Source: a bacterium
GTDB taxonomy: Bacteria > UBP6 > JAFGXH01
Assembly: GCA_027064085.1 (NCBI GenBank)
Contig: JAMOQH010000007.1
Span: forward strand, 1-22,818
Direction: 5' to 3'
DNA: 22,818 bases
Position 1 is the first letter of the stretch. Each line of letters starts with the position of its first letter. The position numbers and the translations under genes are program-made. The notes under the pieces were generated by a model that had not been told where the DNA came from, did no database searches, and worked only from the letters and a program-made list of their open reading frames with translations. Shown here piece after piece: positions 1 through 19,260 of the stretch.

Positions 1-115
1 ATACGGGACAGTTGAAGAAGTATTTAGAGGCTGATTGGTAGTGATGGCCGTTTCAACCTGCTATATGCAGTTTTACACGGTAAATTTAACCTTGGTTTTA
101 AATTTAGAGGGGAAT
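1..115. other. GC-richer leader before the cassette, possible tail of an upstream gene
   Basis: The first 100 bases contain 39 G or C, against 24 in the next 100, so this stretch has a different composition from the genes after it. Two short plus-strand frames could be tails of an upstream gene. One ends at 39-41 (residues TGQLKKYLEADW then stop). The other is open from 28 to 126 and includes DGRFNLLYAVLHGKF. I do not recognise either. A neighbouring gene cut by the window edge, possibly frameshifted, or a recombination scar are both possible. No promoter is evident. Confidence 0.3.
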
Positions 116-583
116 ATGGAAAGTAGTTTTTATGAATTTTCACTTGAAATGAAAAAAGATTCAAAGATTTTATTTGATAATAAAGCCTTTCATAATTCTG
201 TATATTTAGCAGGATATGTATTGGAAGGATATATTAAGTTGATTTTACTAAAATTTGGTTATGAATATAAAAATATTAAAAAACATTTAAATGATAGAGA
301 ATTAATGAATTTGCTAGGTAATCTGATTTCAATATATCCAAATGTATTTGAATATTCTATTTTGTTAAAAACAAATAAAAAAAATCCTAAATTACTACTT
401 AATGGTGGTAGAGATGACCAGTTTGAAGCAAAATGGAATGTAAGTGATAGATATAATATCAAGCAATGGTCAAAAACTGATAAATCTAAAAAAGATAATC
501 GTTTTTATTCAGAAAAAATACAAATGGAAATAAATAATATAGAAAAAGAAATGTTAAAATTAAAATTAGATGGAGTTTTATAA
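116..583 (+). CDS. HEPN-domain-like protein, 155 aa
   Basis: This small, probably cytoplasmic, alpha-helical protein resembles the HEPN superfamily. Near the N-terminus it has YLAGYVLEGYIKLIL, matching the usual HEPN pattern of a long helix with LAGYALE(C)xLK, and later KWNVSDRYN, matching the W-x-x-x-x-RY pattern of these domains. The RxxxxH ribonuclease motif of toxic HEPN proteins is not visible, so a binding or scaffold role is as likely as RNA cleavage. The frame is open from base 35, but I start at ATG 116 because AGAGGGG lies just upstream and HEPN similarity begins there. Its stop overlaps the next start by one base (TAATG), implying translational coupling and partnership with the two-P-loop ATPase. 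The precise function is unknown. Confidence 0.6.
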   Translation: MESSFYEFSLEMKKDSKILFDNKAFHNSVYLAGYVLEGYIKLILLKFGYEYKNIKKHLNDRELMNLLGNLISIYPNVFEYSILLKTNKKNPKLLLNGGRDDQFEAKWNVSDRYNIKQWSKTDKSKKDNRFYSEKIQMEINNIEKEMLKLKLDGVL

Positions 584-3102
584 TGAATTTTTTAGATATT
601 TTAGAGAACTTAGAAAGTATATTAAAAAAAGAAAATGAATTAGATTATTACATCATAAATAATATTTATGGAAAAAATTTAATTTTATTGGAATCTGATA
701 GATATTCAAGAGATAAATTGCTAGAAATTAAAGTAAAATTAGAAAACAAATTTAAAAATGCTATTCAAGATGTGATTTTTGAAGATAACCGTTTGGCTTC
801 TGAAATAAAAAATATTTGTCAAAAAAACTCTGTAACTCATCGTAATATAAGTTATTCTGCATGGAATAAAGATAAAATAAATCCTAATAAAAACAAAATT
901 GTTAAAAAGGTAATTGCAGGTTATTCCTTTAAAGGAGGAATGGGGCGAAGTATAACTATTGCTTATTTATCTCATTATTTTTATTCTTTGGGTAAAAAAA
1001 TTGTTATTTTAGATTGTGATTTTGAAGCTCCTGGTATTTCAACTTTATTTTTTAATAAAGGAAAACGAAAACATAAGGCTGGAATTTTAGATTATTTAAT
1101 TGATTGTAATATAAATGATAACCTTCCATTAGATGATTACTTTTTGGAGTTAGAAGCAAGTAAAAAAGGTGGTAATATTTATTTGTTTCCATCAGGAATA
1201 GATTATAAAACAAGCTCTTATTTAAATAAGATATCAAAAATTGATTTTAACTCATTAAGCTATATTAAAAAGATGTATGATTTAATAGAAAATATAAAAA
1301 ATCATCCAATTTTAAAACCTGATATTATTTTTATTGATTTAAGAGCTGGAATAAGTGAGTCTAATGGAAATTTTTTAAGTAAAATTTCTGATTTGAATTT
1401 ATTATTTTTTAATAGTGAAGAACAAAATGAAGAAGGATTAGAAATTATTTTAAATAATATTAATATAGAGTCTAGCATATTGTTAAATTCAGGAATTAGA
1501 TTTAATGATAAGGAATTAAGAGATAAGAAACAAAGCAAATTAAAGCACTTTATTAATTCTTTAAAAATAAAAGGTGAAAATAACTTAAAAGTTATAGAAA
1601 TTCCCTTTAACCAAAAAATGCTTGAATCAAATATTTCAGATGTAGAAGATGGTTTTATAAATGATTTAAAAATGATAATTAAAAATAAATATTTTGAAAT
1701 TAATTCAAAACCTATTAACAGTGAAGTAAATTTAAAAGAAATATTTAAAAAATTAGAAAAAGAATTTAGAAAAATTATAGGAAAAGAAAAGTTTTTAACT
1801 GAAAATGATTTAAAATACTTTTATTTTAAGGATGATATACAGCTTTTAATAAATGAACAAAAATTTTTAATTTTAGGTCCTAAAGGAAGTGGTAAATCAA
1901 CTCTTTTTGAAATATTTAAGCAAAACTTCAAACCTATTTTAAATAAATTAAATGTTCATAAAAATTCTTATCTAGTTGGCTTTTCTAATGATAATATTAA
2001 TGATATATCTTCAGAACAGATAATTAACATTAATGGTAAAGCAGGTAAAAAAAATAAAAACATTAACATTAAGAGATTTTGGAAATATTTGACATTATTT
2101 CAACTAGAAAATAAATTAAATATCCAAACTCCAGTTTTCAAGAATATTAATGATATTGCTAGCAAAATTACAAACAATGAGATATCTATTTTAGTAGATG
2201 AAAGCTTAAGAGATTTAAATATAGATTTACTTAAAAAAGAAAATGTTTATACATTTCTCTATGATGAATTAGATGTCAATATTCCTGAAGACTTAAGAAT
2301 TCATTTTATTTCAAATTTGATATCTTTTTGGCAAGAAAATATATATAAATATACTCAAATTAGAGCAAAAATATTTTTGAGGAATGATATATTTGAATTA
2401 TTAAAAATAGAAAATAAAACACATTTAGATATCAATAAATTTGAATTAATATGGAGTAAAAAAGAAATTTTATCTTTAATATTAAAAATAATTATTGCAA
2501 CTTTAAGTGAAAAAGAAATTAAAAATTTAGGTTTAGATTTAATTGTAAAATCGTATGTTAATTACGAAATTATTTCGGATGATGAAAAAGTAAATTTAGC
2601 AATTAGAAAATTATTTGCTAAAAGAATTAGTTCCAAGGGATTATTTATGGATGATTGGATAATAAAATATTTATCTGATTCAAATAATGTTATTACTCCG
2701 AGGACTATTTATAAATTCTTATCTGAAATAATTTCTAATGAAATGGAAAAATTATCAGAGAAGGATAGTTCCCGAGATATAATATTTTTTAATTTTATAA
2801 AAAATTATAAAATAATACATAAAAAGGTATCTTTATATAGGTTAGAAGAGTATATAAATGAATATCCCAAGAATAATAAGTATATAAATAAAATAAAAAG
2901 TTTAGGTTATGCAAATTTTATTTTTGAAGATTTTAAAAAAGAGTATACTGAAAAAAATAAAGCAGATAAAACTATACAAAAGTATTTACAGGACTTGCAA
3001 AAAACTGGTTTTTTAAAGTATGAAAAACAAACGAAAAAATATAGATTAGCTGAGATATATACTCCTGCATTAAATTTAAAGAAGAATAAAAGAGGAAAGT
3101 AA
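583..3102 (+). CDS. Two-P-loop ATPase: KGGMGR ParA/MinD-like domain fused to a second P-loop domain, 839 aa
   Basis: The protein has two nucleotide-binding regions. After an N-terminal helical stretch (about 1-110), a deviant Walker A motif KGGMGRS lies at 117-123, followed by ILDCDFEAPG and a Walker B-like IDLRAGIS around D252. This is the layout of the KGGVGR-variant branch of ParA/MinD ATPases. A second, classical P-loop GPKGSGKST lies at 432-440, with an acidic YDELD stretch around 565. This half resembles large P-loop ATPases found in defence loci, such as the Sll1717-like group. The C-terminus (about 760-825) looks like a winged helix. The gene is coupled to the HEPN gene by a one-base overlap. 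An energy-using sensor or effector-control role is inferred from these domains and the PglZ/BrxL neighbours; no activity can be assigned. The second half might play the BrxC-like ATPase part in this locus. Confidence 0.6.
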   Translation: MNFLDILENLESILKKENELDYYIINNIYGKNLILLESDRYSRDKLLEIKVKLENKFKNAIQDVIFEDNRLASEIKNICQKNSVTHRNISYSAWNKDKINPNKNKIVKKVIAGYSFKGGMGRSITIAYLSHYFYSLGKKIVILDCDFEAPGISTLFFNKGKRKHKAGILDYLIDCNINDNLPLDDYFLELEASKKGGNIYLFPSGIDYKTSSYLNKISKIDFNSLSYIKKMYDLIENIKNHPILKPDIIFIDLRAGISESNGNFLSKISDLNLLFFNSEEQNEEGLEIILNNINIESSILLNSGIRFNDKELRDKKQSKLKHFINSLKIKGENNLKVIEIPFNQKMLESNISDVEDGFINDLKMIIKNKYFEINSKPINSEVNLKEIFKKLEKEFRKIIGKEKFLTENDLKYFYFKDDIQLLINEQKFLILGPKGSGKSTLFEIFKQNFKPILNKLNVHKNSYLVGFSNDNINDISSEQIININGKAGKKNKNINIKRFWKYLTLFQLENKLNIQTPVFKNINDIASKITNNEISILVDESLRDLNIDLLKKENVYTFLYDELDVNIPEDLRIHFISNLISFWQENIYKYTQIRAKIFLRNDIFELLKIENKTHLDINKFELIWSKKEILSLILKIIIATLSEKEIKNLGLDLIVKSYVNYEIISDDEKVNLAIRKLFAKRISSKGLFMDDWIIKYLSDSNNVITPRTIYKFLSEIISNEMEKLSEKDSSRDIIFFNFIKNYKIIHKKVSLYRLEEYINEYPKNNKYINKIKSLGYANFIFEDFKKEYTEKNKADKTIQKYLQDLQKTGFLKYEKQTKKYRLAEIYTPALNLKKNKRGK

Positions 3103-3160
3103 GTAGTATTATGAATATGAGACTATCTTGGTTTAGGTACTTATTAAAAAAAGGAAAAAC

Positions 3161-3316
3161 ATGACAAATAAACCAACAAATAACTACCGCACCCTGATAA
3201 ATCAAATTTCAGAAGCCTATAATCCTAATGCACTGTTTGCTATTCTTACTATAAACTCTAAACTATACTTTACTGTTTCTATGAAAAATGCTAAACTTAA
3301 CTTTAGTGTTTTGTAA
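3161..3316 (+). pseudogene. 51-codon remnant resembling the N-terminus of DUF1016/YhcG-type nucleases
   Basis: ATG 3161 follows AAGGA by five bases and opens a 51-codon frame ending TAA at 3314-3316. Its first 20 residues (MTNKPTNNYRTLINQISEAY) closely resemble the start of DUF1016/YhcG PDDEXK nuclease-domain proteins, which are about 350 residues long and common in defence islands. After EAYN the similarity stops, and the rest (from PNALFAIL to FSVL) is not recognised. I read this as the 5' end of a gene whose body was lost in a rearrangement. The segment is GC-richer (32 of 100 from 3161) than its neighbours. It could still be translated, since start and ribosome site are intact. The family match is from memory. 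Confidence 0.45.
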
Positions 3317-3326
3317 TAGAGGGCTT

Positions 3327-4523
3327 ATGTTACTTGATAAATTAAAAGAAAAACAAAGACGGCTTGTCAATAAAGTAAAATCTATTAATTATGAAAGACA
3401 TGAATTAGAGTTTATTAAATCAAATGAAAAATTAATTGCCTTAATTGGAAGTAGAGGAGTAGGTAAAACTACTGTTTTGCTACAATATGCTTTATTATTT
3501 GATATTGATGAGCTTTTATACTTTAGTGCAGATGACATTGGTATTGCCAAAACTGGTCTTTATGAAATTGCTGAAGAATTTTCAAGTTTAGGTGGAAAAG
3601 TTATTGTTATTGATGAGATACATCAGTTTAAAGACTGGGCAAAACATATAAAAAATATTTATGATGATTTTGATTTAAAAATTAGGATTGGTGGCTCATC
3701 TATGCTTAAAATTTTAATGCAAGGTTATGATCTAAGTAGAAGGATTTTAATAAAAGAGTTAAGAAACTTAAGCTTTAAAGAGTTTTTTGAAATAAATGAA
3801 AATATTAGCCTAAAATTATATAGTTTAGATGAAATTATAGAAAATCATAATGATATATCATTTGATTTAATAAATCGTTATCCTAATTTATATAGAGAGT
3901 GGAAAAGATATTTAGAAATGGGCTGTTATCCATATTTTTTGAGCTCTGCAACAAAAGAAAATTTTTATAGTAAGTTGTTTAATTCTATAGAAAAAATTAT
4001 TTATGAGGATATTCCAGCAACAAATAAAGTAAAATATGATTCTTTAGTTGTTTTTAAAAAGCTTATATATATCCTTATCTCCTCTAGAGTTCCTTTTCAA
4101 GTAAATGTAAGTAATCTCGCCAAAGAGCTAAGTATTAGTGAGCCAAGTTTATACATTTACATGGATATATTAAATAAAACAGGTCTTTTTAAATCTATTA
4201 AAAAATATTCTAAAAAACTCTCAAGAAAACCAGCTAAGTTATACTTTGATAATACTAACTTGCTACATGCAATTGCTTTTGATATGTCTACAGTAGTAGA
4301 AATAGGTACGGTTAGAGAAACTTATTTTGTTAATATCTTTAAAGATATTTATTATAGTGATATTGGTGATTTTAGAATCAAGGATTATATTTTTGAAGTA
4401 GGTGGAAAAAATAAAGATTTTCAGCAAATAAAAAATATAAAAAACAGTTTTTTAGCTATTGATACAGATACAACAATTAATAAAAGAAAAATCCCATTAT
4501 GGTTATTTGGCTTTAAATATTAA
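3327..4523 (+). CDS. AAA_14/DUF4143-family ATPase, 398 aa
   Basis: This is a stand-alone ATPase of the AAA_14 plus DUF4143 type. Walker A GSRGVGKT lies at 41-48, Walker B VIVIDEIH has its acidic pair at D96/E97, and a sensor-like RIGGSS follows. The second half has the DUF4143 character: a winged-helix-like segment (NLAKELSISEPSLYIYMDIL) and then KLYFDNTNLLHAI and a late region resembling the degenerate nuclease fold of this family. Length is normal (about 380-430). A frame is open from ATG 3288, but ATG 3327 is preferred because AGAGGG lies just before it, 3288 has no ribosome site, and the family starts near MLLDKL. Such ATPases are common in mobile and defence regions, with poorly known function. 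It precedes pglZ on the same strand and may be cargo or part of the system. Confidence 0.75.
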   Translation: MLLDKLKEKQRRLVNKVKSINYERHELEFIKSNEKLIALIGSRGVGKTTVLLQYALLFDIDELLYFSADDIGIAKTGLYEIAEEFSSLGGKVIVIDEIHQFKDWAKHIKNIYDDFDLKIRIGGSSMLKILMQGYDLSRRILIKELRNLSFKEFFEINENISLKLYSLDEIIENHNDISFDLINRYPNLYREWKRYLEMGCYPYFLSSATKENFYSKLFNSIEKIIYEDIPATNKVKYDSLVVFKKLIYILISSRVPFQVNVSNLAKELSISEPSLYIYMDILNKTGLFKSIKKYSKKLSRKPAKLYFDNTNLLHAIAFDMSTVVEIGTVRETYFVNIFKDIYYSDIGDFRIKDYIFEVGGKNKDFQQIKNIKNSFLAIDTDTTINKRKIPLWLFGFKY

Positions 4524-4543
4524 AATAAATAGGAGAAATAACT

Positions 4544-4618
4544 TTGATAATAAAAAAGAAAAAAATGAATATTGATTTAGAGGAGATATTGATAAATTAT
4601 TCACTATTGGAGAAATAA
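4544..4618 (+). other. Possible 24-codon leader ORF before pglZ
   Basis: A TTG at 4544 lies eight bases after AGGAG (4531-4535) and opens a 24-codon frame ending in TAA at 4616-4618, directly abutting the pglZ ATG at 4619. An internal ATG at 4565 gives 17 codons. The ribosome site and the stop/start abutment suggest a translated leader or the tail of a lost gene. In DNA this AT-rich, a short frame like this can occur by chance. There is no recognisable homology. Confidence 0.2.
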
Positions 4619-6856
4619 ATGATTGATAAATGGTTTAAAAAAGACCTTGAAACGGCTTATGAATATAAAAAAGTCAGTGTCTTTATTGATGAAAGCAGAG
4701 AATCTGAATTTTTACTTAATTTTTTATCTTCTGATATTAAATTATTCAAGGGTATTAATAATGAAATAGATGAACTTGATGTAAAGTATCAAATAGAAAA
4801 AGAAAATAGTGATAAAAAGTATTTAATATATACGAATACAGCAAAAGATAAGCTTAAATTTATAAGAGAATATTGTGAAACAGAAAGTTTTATTGAAATA
4901 AATAATTTAGCTGTTTACATTAGAGAGCATTTGAATAAACTTAATATAAATTTAAATCTTTCAGATAAAGATATTATTTTTGCTAGTAAAATAAGTGTAG
5001 GAAAAGATGGAGCTTATTGGAAAGATATTCAAACTTATGGGAAAGATAAAATTTTTAATATTAAAGAAGAAATTTTAGTATTACTGGAAAGTTCAAATGA
5101 TTTTAAAAATAGATATGATGATGAGATGTTAAAGGATTTTTATCGTAAAATAAGTGATTTTATTGATTATCCACATAATGATAGTTTTGATTTTAAGGTT
5201 TTGGCTCGTGAAACTGCTAAATATATGTTTAATCTTATTATAAAAAATGAATTAAATAACGAATGGAGTGAAATATATAAAAAACTTTTAAATTCAAAAA
5301 GTCATGAGGAAAGTTTAAAAGAATATTTAGAAGTATATGAAAAAACTATTTTAAATGGAAGTGAAATTAATATTTGGAGTATTATCCCTAATCATCCTTT
5401 TTCTGAGATAGATAAAAGATGGCTTGATAAAATAATAAATGAAATGAAGAATAGAAAAAATTTAGATAATTATATTGAAAAAATAAAAAATAGATTAAAA
5501 AATAAAAATATTCTAAAATTAATAAATATAGATTTTTGGGATTCCCTAATAATATTATTAACTTTTGATGATGGAAAAATAGCAAAATTAGACAGTTTAG
5601 ATAAATGTATTGAGTATTATAAAAATGAATTTTATAAATTAGATAATGCAATGGATTTTTTATATAAAGAATTTTTAAATAATAGTGAAATTATTATTCC
5701 TATACAAGAAAAATATCGTAATTTTTTAGATATATTTTTAGATAAATGGTTTAAATATTTTAATCAGTATAAACAAAATCAAACAGGTGTTTTACAAAGA
5801 ATTATTAATGAAAATTCGGATAAAAAGATTGCAATTATTGTTGCTGATGCTTTAAGTTATGTTATTTCAAAAAACATTATAAATAATGGTAAATTAAAGA
5901 TTTATAAATGTATTGAAGATGTAATTTTATGTGATATCCCATCTGAAACAGAAAATAATATGAGTCAGATATATATTGATACCGGAATAGTTGAATCTAT
6001 TCATAAAAAAAGAGAAAAGTACTTATTATCAAAAAATAGTAATGTTGAATTTATGAAAATAGAAGATGTTAATCAAAATATTAATCAAGCTATGTATTTA
6101 ATATGTACTCATAAAGATATTGATAGCATTGGAGAAGAGTTAGACCATAATTTAATTAATTATTTTTCAAAAATAGAAAGGGAATTATCTCAAAAAATAA
6201 AACTTTTATTAGAAAGTGGGTATAATAAAGTTTATTTAATTAGTGACCATGGTTTCGTTTTTACTGGAAATTTAAGTGATTCAGATAAAATCAATGTTAA
6301 TTTTAATGGCGAGTTAAACAAAAGAGAAAGGTATATAAGGTCTGTTGAAAAACAAAATATAGCGAGTAATTTAATTGAAGTAAAAAAAGATTATAATGAA
6401 TATAAATATTTATATTTTGCTAAGTCTATAAGTCCATTTAGTTCGAGAGGAAAATATGGTTTTAGTCATGGAGGACTTTCACCACAAGAGCTTATAACCC
6501 CTTTTGTTTCTTGGGAATCTAATCACGATAATAATGATTTAAAATTAAATATTATAAACAAAGAAGTTTTAAAAAATGTAACAGGTAATTTATTTAAAGT
6601 TATTATTAAAGCAAATTCTGTTGATAATTTATTTTCTATGAGTAGGAAAATTAAAATTATCAACTATTTTGGAAATAAAGAAGTGAGTAAATCAGATATT
6701 ATAACAATTAAAAAAGGTGAAAAAATAGAAAAAGAGTTTGAATTTGATAAGTTTAATGAACTTAAACTTATCATTTTTGATGCTGAAAGTAACGAGCAAT
6801 TAGATTTTGTTATTGTTAGGAAAAATAATGATAGAGATTTAAGTGGGCTTTTATAG
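4619..6856 (+). CDS. pglZ: PglZ-domain alkaline-phosphatase-fold protein (BREX component), 745 aa
   Basis: PglZ proteins are core components of BREX and Pgl phage-exclusion systems and share the alkaline phosphatase fold. The diagnostic blocks are present in order: AIIVADALSYVIS with the metal-binding Asp at 410; CTHKDIDSIGEELDH; LISDHGFVF with D543/H544; and GFSHGGLSPQELITPFVSW with H617. A C-terminal beta-rich tail follows. The N-terminal 350 residues are helical and not recognised beyond being PglZ-like. At 745 residues it is shorter than the roughly 830-850 typical of type 1 BREX PglZ. The start is supported by GGAG six bases before the ATG. BrxL follows after ten bases, so the two are almost certainly co-transcribed. 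No BrxB, BrxC or PglX is seen in the window, so the BREX subtype is undetermined. The biochemical activity of PglZ in defence is unsettled. Confidence 0.88.
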   Translation: MIDKWFKKDLETAYEYKKVSVFIDESRESEFLLNFLSSDIKLFKGINNEIDELDVKYQIEKENSDKKYLIYTNTAKDKLKFIREYCETESFIEINNLAVYIREHLNKLNINLNLSDKDIIFASKISVGKDGAYWKDIQTYGKDKIFNIKEEILVLLESSNDFKNRYDDEMLKDFYRKISDFIDYPHNDSFDFKVLARETAKYMFNLIIKNELNNEWSEIYKKLLNSKSHEESLKEYLEVYEKTILNGSEINIWSIIPNHPFSEIDKRWLDKIINEMKNRKNLDNYIEKIKNRLKNKNILKLINIDFWDSLIILLTFDDGKIAKLDSLDKCIEYYKNEFYKLDNAMDFLYKEFLNNSEIIIPIQEKYRNFLDIFLDKWFKYFNQYKQNQTGVLQRIINENSDKKIAIIVADALSYVISKNIINNGKLKIYKCIEDVILCDIPSETENNMSQIYIDTGIVESIHKKREKYLLSKNSNVEFMKIEDVNQNINQAMYLICTHKDIDSIGEELDHNLINYFSKIERELSQKIKLLLESGYNKVYLISDHGFVFTGNLSDSDKINVNFNGELNKRERYIRSVEKQNIASNLIEVKKDYNEYKYLYFAKSISPFSSRGKYGFSHGGLSPQELITPFVSWESNHDNNDLKLNIINKEVLKNVTGNLFKVIIKANSVDNLFSMSRKIKIINYFGNKEVSKSDIITIKKGEKIEKEFEFDKFNELKLIIFDAESNEQLDFVIVRKNNDRDLSGLL

Positions 6857-6866
6857 GATATAAAAT

Positions 6867-8918
6867 ATGATAATGTTAAATGAATTGGATAAAAAATTAT
6901 TGGAATATTTTAAAGGTTTTGTTGTAAAAAAAGATTTAGTTAGAGAGATAAAAGTGGGGGCAAATGTTCCTGTTTTTGTTTTAGAATATCTAATAGCAAA
7001 TTCATGTTCTACAGAAGATGAAGAAAAAATTAAACTTGGTATGCAAAATGTAAAAAATATTTTATCAAAACATTATGTTAATCCGGAAGAAAGTGAATTA
7101 ATTCACTCGAAAATAAGGGAAATAGGTTCTTATAAAATAATTGATAAAATTTCTGTTTCCCTCGATACAAAAAAAGATAAATATTGGGCAAATATTCAAA
7201 ATAGTAATATAAAAAATGCTAATATTGATGACGAACTTGTGAGAACCCACGAAAAGATGATGATGGGAGGAATTTGGGCTATTATTGATATAGAATATGA
7301 TCCAGACATTAAAATTGGTAGTACTATTTATCCCTTTATTATTAGAGAAATAAAACCAATTCAATTATCTTCATTTAGTAACTATAAGTTAAAAGAAAAT
7401 AGAGCTAAGTTTACAAAAAATGAATGGATAGATGTTCTTTTAAGAAGTAGTGGTTATGAACCCGATTCGGAAGATATTAATAAAAGAATTAAAATGTTAT
7501 TACTTTCAAGATTGCTACCTATGGTTGAATCAAATTTCAATTTTGTTGAACTTGGACCTCGCTCAACAGGAAAATCATTTGTTTTTAAAGAGTTAACTCC
7601 CTATGCGGTTCTAATTTCGGGGGGGCAGGGAACTGTTGCGAAATTATTTGTACATGGAAGTACAGGTAAAGTAGGAGCTGTAGGGCAGTGGGACGCTATT
7701 TGTTTTGATGAGGCGACAGATAAAATATTTAAAAATAGAGACTCTGTTCCATTAATGAAAGATTATATGGAGTCAGGTTCATTTTCTAGGGCTGGTTCTG
7801 GTGGTGAAATTACTGGGGTTGCTTCTATAATCTTAAATGGAAATATAAATCAACCTGTGGATGTTGTACTACAAACTTCTAACTTATTTAGCCCTTTATC
7901 CGATGAAATTAACTGTGATACTGCTTTTTTGGATAGATTACACTTTTATTTGCCTGGTTGGGAAATGATTAAGTTTTCTCCAAATCATTTTACTTCTAAT
8001 TTTGGTTTTAGTACTGACTATTTTTCAGAAGTATTAAAATCACTTAGAAAAGAAAATTATACCAATGCAATAGAAGAATATTTTTTACTAGGAAATCACT
8101 TAAAGCAAAGAGATGTTAAGCCGGTAAAGAAAACGGTATCCGGGTTTATAAAATTGTTACATCCTGATGGAAATTATACTAAAAACGATATTAAAGAATA
8201 CTTAGAAATTGCTCTTGAAATGAGAAGAAGAGTTAAAGAGCAGTTAAAAAGAATAGGTGGAATGGAATTTTGGGATACAAATTTTTCCTATATTGATAAA
8301 GATACACAAGAAGAATTTTTTGTTAGTTTACCGGAAGAAAAAGGAAACAATTTGATAGAGAATTCTCCTTTAAAACCTGGAGTTTGTTATACTAGTACTA
8401 GTGATAATGAAAATATCTCATTAATTAGAGTTGAGGCTGTAACCATAAGTGGTACCGGGAAATTAAATATAACAGGAGTAAATAATACAATAATAAAGGA
8501 AAATATAAAAAATACTTATCAATACATAAGAGGAAATGAGAAAAGTATTTTAAGTAGTGAACATTCATTAAAGAATTTTGATATTACAATACAAATAAGA
8601 ACTATACTTGGTGGAACTATTGCCTCTGGAATTGGTTCGGCTGTATATATTGCAATTATTTCTTCTATTTATAAAAAAAGACTTAAGCATGGATTATCAG
8701 TTATTGGAAATATCTCAATTGGTGGAGTACCTGAAAGAGCAAGTGATTTTAGTAATCAAGTTTCAATGTTATCAGAAAATGGATCAAAATTTATACTCTC
8801 GCCAATGGATAACTTACAAGAATTATCTAGTATTCCTCCTATGATTTTAGGAGATAGTGATATTTCTTTTTATCCAAATTCTCAGATTTTATTGCAAAAA
8901 AGTATTTTTATGGATTAA
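6867..8918 (+). CDS. brxL: BrxL, BREX Lon-like AAA+ protein, 683 aa
   Basis: BrxL is the Lon-like AAA+ component found with PglZ in BREX types 1 and 4. The N-terminal region is highly characteristic (KKDLVREIKVGANVPVFVLE; KIREIGSYKIIDKISV; MMMGGIWAIIDIEYD). The AAA+ core has Walker A GPRSTGKSF at 230-238, Walker B CFDEATD (D281/E282), a sensor-like ILNGNIN and a downstream arginine segment FLDRLHFYLPGWE. The C-terminal Lon-like domain (about 520-680) retains a Ser at 591 (GIGSAV), but an ungapped match to E. coli Lon places Gln631 where the catalytic Lys belongs, so proteolysis is doubtful. The likely role is nucleic-acid binding or translocation, as proposed for this family. AGGA lies eight bases before ATG 6867; ATG 6873 is an alternative start. 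It is the last gene of the cassette. Confidence 0.92.
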   Translation: MIMLNELDKKLLEYFKGFVVKKDLVREIKVGANVPVFVLEYLIANSCSTEDEEKIKLGMQNVKNILSKHYVNPEESELIHSKIREIGSYKIIDKISVSLDTKKDKYWANIQNSNIKNANIDDELVRTHEKMMMGGIWAIIDIEYDPDIKIGSTIYPFIIREIKPIQLSSFSNYKLKENRAKFTKNEWIDVLLRSSGYEPDSEDINKRIKMLLLSRLLPMVESNFNFVELGPRSTGKSFVFKELTPYAVLISGGQGTVAKLFVHGSTGKVGAVGQWDAICFDEATDKIFKNRDSVPLMKDYMESGSFSRAGSGGEITGVASIILNGNINQPVDVVLQTSNLFSPLSDEINCDTAFLDRLHFYLPGWEMIKFSPNHFTSNFGFSTDYFSEVLKSLRKENYTNAIEEYFLLGNHLKQRDVKPVKKTVSGFIKLLHPDGNYTKNDIKEYLEIALEMRRRVKEQLKRIGGMEFWDTNFSYIDKDTQEEFFVSLPEEKGNNLIENSPLKPGVCYTSTSDNENISLIRVEAVTISGTGKLNITGVNNTIIKENIKNTYQYIRGNEKSILSSEHSLKNFDITIQIRTILGGTIASGIGSAVYIAIISSIYKKRLKHGLSVIGNISIGGVPERASDFSNQVSMLSENGSKFILSPMDNLQELSSIPPMILGDSDISFYPNSQILLQKSIFMD

Positions 8919-18238: not shown

Positions 18239-18263
18239 CATAATCATAAATATGGGTTATAAT
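18236..18263 (+). promoter_or_regulatory. Sigma70-like promoter for the Rpn-like gene
   Basis: TTGCAT (18236-18241) and a perfect TATAAT (18258-18263) are 16 bases apart, 22 bases upstream of the ATG at 18286. The TTG of the -35 box is the last triplet of the direct repeat. Confidence 0.6.
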
Positions 18264-18285
18264 GTATTGTAAGCATGGAGGCAAT

Positions 18286-19260
18286 ATGAAGGTAATTCGT
18301 TTTGATTGGGCAATAAAATATATACTAAGAGATAAAAAGAATTTTGATATTTTAGAAGGTTTTTTATCAACTCTTTTAGATAAAGATATAAAAATCCTTG
18401 AAATCCTTGAAAGTGAAAGCAATCAGGAAGAAGAAACTATTAAATTTAACAGAGTAGATTTAATGGTAAAAAGTGAAAATGAACAATTTATTATTGAAAT
18501 ACAAAACTCAAGAGAAGTTGATTATCTTGAAAGAATACTTTTTGGAGCTAGTAAAGTTATAGTAGAAAACTTAAAATTAGGTGAAAAGTATGGAAACATT
18601 ACTAAGGTAATATCAGTTAATATATTATATTTTAATCTTGGTAAAGGCGAAGATTATATATATCACGGTAAAACAGAATTTACGGGCTTAAATAAAAAGG
18701 ATAAACTTGTTTTTAAAAGGAGGATTTTTATTGATGATAAAAAATATAAATTTGAGGAAAAAAATATATTTCCTGAATATTATTTAATAAGAACGGAAAA
18801 ATTTGAAGAAGTAATAGGAAGTCCAATAGATGAATGGGTTTATATGTTTAAAAACGGAGAAATTAAATCAGAATTTAAATCAAAAGGAATGAAATCTGTT
18901 AAAAAGAAACTTGATTATTTAAAAATGAGTGAAAAGGAAAGAAAAATTTATAACCGTTACTTAATGAATTTAGCAAGAGAAAACAATATTATAGAAACAG
19001 CAGACCAAGATGGATACATTAGAGGGCTAAAAGAGGGGGAAAAGAAAATAAAGGAAGCGGAAAAGAGAGAAAAAGAAGCAGAAAAGAGAGAAAAAGAAGC
19101 AGAAAAGAGAGAAAAAGAAGCAGAAAAGAGAGAAAAAGAAGCTAGGAAAAAGGTAATAGATTTAGTAAAATTCTTAATAAATTCTAAAACAGATATTAAC
19201 AAGATTATGGAATTAACGGGTTTATCAAAAGAAGAAATAAATAATATTAGAAAAAAATAA
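18286..19260 (+). CDS. PD-(D/E)XK nuclease/transposase-family (Rpn-like) protein, 324 aa
   Basis: The N-terminal 250 residues match the Rpn/PD-(D/E)XK transposase-family group: FDWAIKYILRDKKNFDILEGF at the start, the catalytic-type Asp58 in NRVDLMV and the E-x-Q of FIIEIQNS (E71, Q73), then YLERILFGASKVI. Proteins of this group (related to E. coli RpnA) are DNA endonucleases linked to recombination and often occur in many copies per genome. The C-terminal part (about 245-290) is a charged helix built of AEKREKE heptads. It ends in a small region, TDINKIMELTGLSKEEIN, resembling a helix-turn-helix. The frame is open from 18262, but ATG 18286 has GGAGG four bases upstream and begins the family similarity. 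The gene is bracketed by 43-bp direct repeats. Confidence 0.8.
   Translation: MKVIRFDWAIKYILRDKKNFDILEGFLSTLLDKDIKILEILESESNQEEETIKFNRVDLMVKSENEQFIIEIQNSREVDYLERILFGASKVIVENLKLGEKYGNITKVISVNILYFNLGKGEDYIYHGKTEFTGLNKKDKLVFKRRIFIDDKKYKFEEKNIFPEYYLIRTEKFEEVIGSPIDEWVYMFKNGEIKSEFKSKGMKSVKKKLDYLKMSEKERKIYNRYLMNLARENNIIETADQDGYIRGLKEGEKKIKEAEKREKEAEKREKEAEKREKEAEKREKEARKKVIDLVKFLINSKTDINKIMELTGLSKEEINNIRKK
19057..19140 (+). repeat. Four 21-bp tandem repeats encoding AEKREKE heptads
   Basis: Four head-to-tail copies of a 21-base unit (begin GCAGAAAAGAGAG; the first has GCG for GCA) each encode AEKREKE. Being seven codons long, the unit can expand or contract without shifting frame and would lengthen or shorten a charged helix or coiled coil by whole heptads. 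Near-identity at DNA level suggests recent slippage or duplication. Confidence 0.95.

Follow-up and report, generated by a model that had tools for sequence, protein, structure and literature searches.

Genes lying between BREX components are common: where pglZ and pglX are linked, about 7000 of about 9000 genomes carry them, and the slot between pglX and pglZ is a hotspot (PMC11341690). HEPN, PD-(D/E)XK, TOPRIM and other effectors occur within BREX loci, and HEPN proteins and other nucleases have been recruited by BREX (PMC12839542). A second point of comparison is PDC-M28, a PADLOC candidate system made up of a HEPN protein, a KGGVGR ATPase and an Sll1717 ATPase; in the literature searched, we found no paper naming it and no experiment on it. 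Here we analyzed a stretch of 22,818 nucleotides (the window) that forms the start of contig C7, with base 1 at the contig edge. A sequence-only reading had described a same-strand run of a HEPN-like protein, a two-P-loop ATPase, a nuclease remnant, an AAA_14 ATPase, PglZ and BrxL, and had noted that brxC, a methyltransferase gene and brxP do not occur in the 4.6 kb upstream of pglZ.

Profiles and folds bore out this run except for the nuclease remnant, which is a 51-codon ORF matching no nuclease family. The window opens in the final codons of pglX, a gene truncated here by the contig edge (1-41, plus strand, encoding TGQLKKYLEADW and a stop). A dispersed intergenic repeat, GGCCGTTTCAACCTGCTAT...GCAGTTTTACACGG, occupies the gap between pglX and the cassette (46-119, plus strand) and has partial copies at seven further places in the genome. 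The genes that follow, all on the plus strand, encode a HEPN-fold protein corresponding to PDC-M28A (116-583; PADLOC PDLC04558, E 2e-7, and a fold match), a two-P-loop ATPase corresponding to PDC-M28B and C (583-3102; NF047398, 134 bits, and NF047389, 77 bits, both above cut-off), the 51-codon ORF (3161-3316), a PDC-S01-like AAA_14/DUF4143 ATPase (3327-4523, with the longest ORF running from 3288; PF13173, E 4e-22; PADLOC PDC-S01, E 9e-26) and, adjacent to each other, PglZ (4619-6856) and BrxL (6867-8918). BrxL was identified by TIGR02653 (786 bits, above cut-off) and by PDB 8emc, a BrxL structure (E 1e-170). When PglZ was compared with BREX-subtype profiles, as the earlier reading had proposed, it matched PDLC02545 over its full length at 596 bits and BREX_PglZ_1_B at E 3.5e-17, while its 62 bits against the NCBI equivalog model were below the cut-off of 400.

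The next gene after brxL is gyrB (9086), immediately preceded by a promoter-like site. A terminator scan found none and a promoter scan yielded fewer sites than in shuffled sequence. Further along, the window encodes a PDDEXK_2 (Rpn-like) family protein with tandem KEAEKRE repeats (18262-19260), and the start of another contig, C130, upstream of brxA, encodes a C-terminal end similar to this protein.

The other BREX core genes were located elsewhere in the same assembly. On C130, we identified brxA (2233-3030; PDLC02458, E 6e-61), brxB (3039-3590; PDLC02460, E 2e-33) and brxC (3602-7342, 1246 aa; PDLC02493, 1164 bits; NF033441, 489 bits against a cut-off of 400), and PF08849 scored above its cut-off in the BrxA/BrxB test. 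After these, 321 codons from the start of pglX lead into a perfect 75-bp tandem repeat, at which C130 terminates. The remainder of pglX lies on C25: the two pieces align to different parts of a single PADLOC model, PDLC02519 (C130, positions 1-258; C25, positions 272-1241), and the best NCBIfam model for the C25 piece was BREX_1, at 434 bits and thus below the equivalog cut-off of 500. Bases 1-41 of the window are identical to the end of pglX on C25 save for one synonymous base and a TAG/TAA difference in the stop codon. BrxC and PglZ each had one match across the genome. All six type I BREX core genes are therefore in the assembly, spread over C130, C25 and C7. Type 4 BREX was also considered and rejected as improbable, from searches covering pglX, brxA and brxB, all of which are present.

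An intact homologous locus was found in one of the 290 genomes searched, G310, which belongs to another phylum and was the only one with a full-length relative of the window PglZ. Its unbroken contig reads brxA-brxB-brxC-PDDEXK_3-pglX-YhcG nuclease-pglZ-brxL, and BrxC, PglX, PglZ and BrxL fall into the same PADLOC subfamilies in both assemblies. Identity to G310 is 67% for BrxL and about 48-50% for PglX, and the G310 PglX ends in LDKYLKADW. The G310 locus has no HEPN, two-P-loop ATPase or AAA_14 genes. Its PDDEXK_3 protein, between brxC and pglX (L162, 12546-12935), marks a further accessory position within this BREX subfamily. The window ATPase and PglZ are both absent from the genomes of two family members (G001 and G002), so these close relatives yield no synteny, and matches to PglZ on plasmids were weak. 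Given the pglX end at the window edge, the C130 and C25 pieces and the G310 locus, the data point to a canonical type I BREX that assembly breaks have divided. The simplest reading is that C130, C25 and C7 would join into one operon, interrupted by repeats and by a mixed accessory slot; no single read or contig spans these joins, which are inferred.

The pglX gene contains a GC-rich palindromic repeat, in frame, at four sites with six copies: C130 (L012) 7429-7472 and 8106-8307, and C25 (L013) 1784-1856 and 3131-3173. Three of the six copies make up the 75-bp tandem at the C130 end. Relative to G310 PglX, two of the sites are clear insertions, one near residue 256 and one near residue 241 of the C25 piece. 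Outside pglX, the genome holds this repeat only at C185:5078-5120, again in frame, within a CXXCH-rich protein. The repeat is reminiscent of Rickettsia palindromic elements.

The assembly also holds a second version of the slot. On C25, the pglX end and the remnant sequence that flank the window cassette enclose a different gene, a 213-aa ORF (L013, 173-814, minus strand); the remnant sequence is 99% identical over 79 bp (window 3148-3226 versus C25:1-79). The slot thus has two alleles in a single assembly, probably through strain mixture, and since the alternative cassette lies at the end of C25, the pglX on that contig may come from a strain other than that of C7. The 213-aa ORF had no family match in a profile search; by eye, a D..VEIK stretch is suggestive of the kind found in PD-(D/E)XK nucleases. 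The 51-codon ORF shares its first 66 bases with the C25 allele and likewise had no family match in a profile search. Its first 39 residues show a weak likeness to the YhcG nuclease N-terminus (shuffle frequency 0.026); derivation from a DUF1016/YhcG nuclease is at most a tentative proposal for this ORF of uncertain origin.

For the first cassette gene, the HEPN match by sequence alone was weak (Pfam, E 0.068). The predicted model (pLDDT 74.5) matched solved HEPN structures best, led by 2hsb with a Z of 11.8 and an rmsd of 2.7 over 118 residues, and AbiV gave Z 7. Helical bundles can reach such scores by chance, but nearly all of the top matches carry a HEPN description. The family has a conserved G-E-K helix and a W..RY motif, and G33, E37, R112 and Y113 are invariant among 35 sequences. 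In the window protein there is no His 4-6 residues after the invariant R112-Y113, so the Rx4-6H RNase motif is not formed, and only 14 of 82 homologues have any motif of this type in the C-terminal part. Since the classic motif is missing, a role for the HEPN protein as an RNase effector is uncertain.

The adjacent ATPase is a fusion of a ParA/MinD-like KGGVGR domain (residues about 107-375) with an Sll1717-family ATPase (about 404-830). The first of its P-loop motifs, KGGMGR, spans residues 117-122, and the second, GPKGSGKS, lies near 432-438; both are invariant in 32 homologues, and both sites are probably in use, judging from this conservation. Modelled residues 107-370 matched ParA/MinD structures at Z 17-22. 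The two domains matched PDC-M28B (PDLC04559, E 2e-31) and PDC-M28C (PDLC04561, E 3e-13), so that, with the HEPN protein, all PDC-M28 models were matched.

Recurrence of the HEPN-ATPase pair was examined in 93 module loci, comprising the window plus 12 loci on plasmids and 80 in genomes. The genome loci were found by an alignment-based search of genome contigs with the ATPase; a single-protein search of the same contigs gave no match, nor did searches of phage records and of E. coli genomes. In 80 of the 93 loci, the ATPase gene is immediately preceded, within 800 bp, by a HEPN ORF; of 83 HEPN-profile matches, 82 are adjacent to the ATPase. The pair therefore recurs, mostly without BREX: close BREX homologues were absent within 10 kb at all 80 genome loci, save weak partial type 2 matches in two, as judged by tblastn with the BREX proteins of this genome and one type 2 PglW and PglX, a test that very divergent BREX could escape. 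BrxL was absent from 20 of 24 checked carrier genomes. Together, these results indicate that PDC-M28 is a separate, widely spread unit. Plasmids of Enterobacter, Paraburkholderia, Burkholderia and Calothrix encode HEPN, KGGVGR and Sll1717 proteins as three separate genes; the fused ATPase also occurs, with HEPN, on Pantoea and Nostoc plasmids, and in Lachnospiraceae and other cyanobacteria. On a Streptomyces plasmid, PDC-M28 genes (120, 439 and 525 bits against PDC-M28A, B and C) lie inside a type 2 BREX, between pglW and pglX (L050, 6072-9498), suggesting that type I and type 2 BREX recruited the module independently. These are the only two BREX-linked cases seen.

In its anatomy, the locus is very likely canonical type I BREX carrying passenger genes. 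The order we propose is brxA-brxB-brxC-pglX-[accessory slot]-pglZ-brxL, of which the window would hold the 3' part. PglX would methylate host sites, leaving unmodified phage DNA marked, and restriction would be carried out by BrxC, BrxB, PglZ and BrxL, both as established in other type I systems. The slot passengers would be the self-contained, two-gene PDC-M28 and the AAA_14/DUF4143 ATPase. PDC-M28 would most likely provide a back-up layer of the abortive-infection type, with the ParA-like and Sll1717-like ATPase domains as possible sensor or switch and the HEPN protein as possible effector or regulator; expression together with BREX, the trigger and the HEPN activity are presumed here. Taken alone, a back-up role of the HEPN-ATPase pair is a plausible but evenly balanced proposal.

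The earlier reading had also raised a BREX variant with the two-P-loop ATPase in place of BrxC; the ATPase would then be a core component alongside PglZ and BrxL. The ATPase gene does sit directly in the operon on the same strand, but a full-length BrxC is encoded beside brxA, brxB and pglX, the ATPase pairs a ParA/MinD-like N-domain with an Sll1717 C-domain and gave no match to the BrxC profile, and most carriers have it without BREX. Replacement of BrxC is contradicted by these findings and extremely unlikely, which removes a false lead. Decay of the locus, with remnants and contig breaks left by a degenerating island, would fit the 51-codon remnant between two cassettes and the repeat insertions in pglX; the core genes are nevertheless all long and open, and BrxL and PglX share 67% and about 48-50% identity with the intact G310 locus. 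Support for decay is confined to the small remnant, and decay is improbable for the locus as a whole. The canonical set in the genome and a G310 homologue lacking the HEPN, two-P-loop ATPase and AAA_14 genes correspond to the findings the earlier reading had named as marking these genes as incidental insertions, and of its three options the one supported is a HEPN-ATPase module nested in a BREX locus, PDC-M28 lying in the pglX-pglZ slot.

Location in BREX loci could instead have been selected, in a composite of co-adapted BREX and PDC-M28 in which phage inhibitors that block BREX would trigger the module, as Ocr does PARIS. The Streptomyces type 2 BREX and the precedent of PARIS-BREX and auxiliary effectors (PMC12839542) speak for co-adaptation, but most copies of the module have no BREX nearby, only two linked cases were seen, and the slot takes many unrelated genes (PMC11341690); we regard it as a tentative possibility. 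A fuller version, in which type I and type II BREX each acquired PDC-M28 separately because it serves as a back-up triggered by BREX inhibition, through a HEPN protein without the classic RNase histidine and under control of a ParA-like ATPase, is speculative and unlikely. With a named candidate module placed in BREX loci of two types, PDC-M28 is a reasonable choice for tests of BREX partners, and the assembly adds a case of a single BREX slot occupied by either of two cassettes.

Compared with known systems, the parts are known and the combination is new, and the locus is not a new BREX type; an arrangement with genes between BREX components is in principle a published one (PMC11341690). As in type I BREX, all six core genes are in the genome, in an order that is contiguous in the G310 homologue, whereas here they extend over three contigs and the pglX-pglZ slot holds the HEPN-ATPase and AAA_14 genes. 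PDC-M28 here keeps the gene order of the candidate system, with HEPN upstream followed by the KGGVGR and Sll1717 domains, but the two ATPases of the PADLOC description are one fused protein located within a type I BREX. As in BREX loci with embedded PARIS or BrxU, a second defence module lies within the BREX locus; the passenger differs, being the candidate module PDC-M28.
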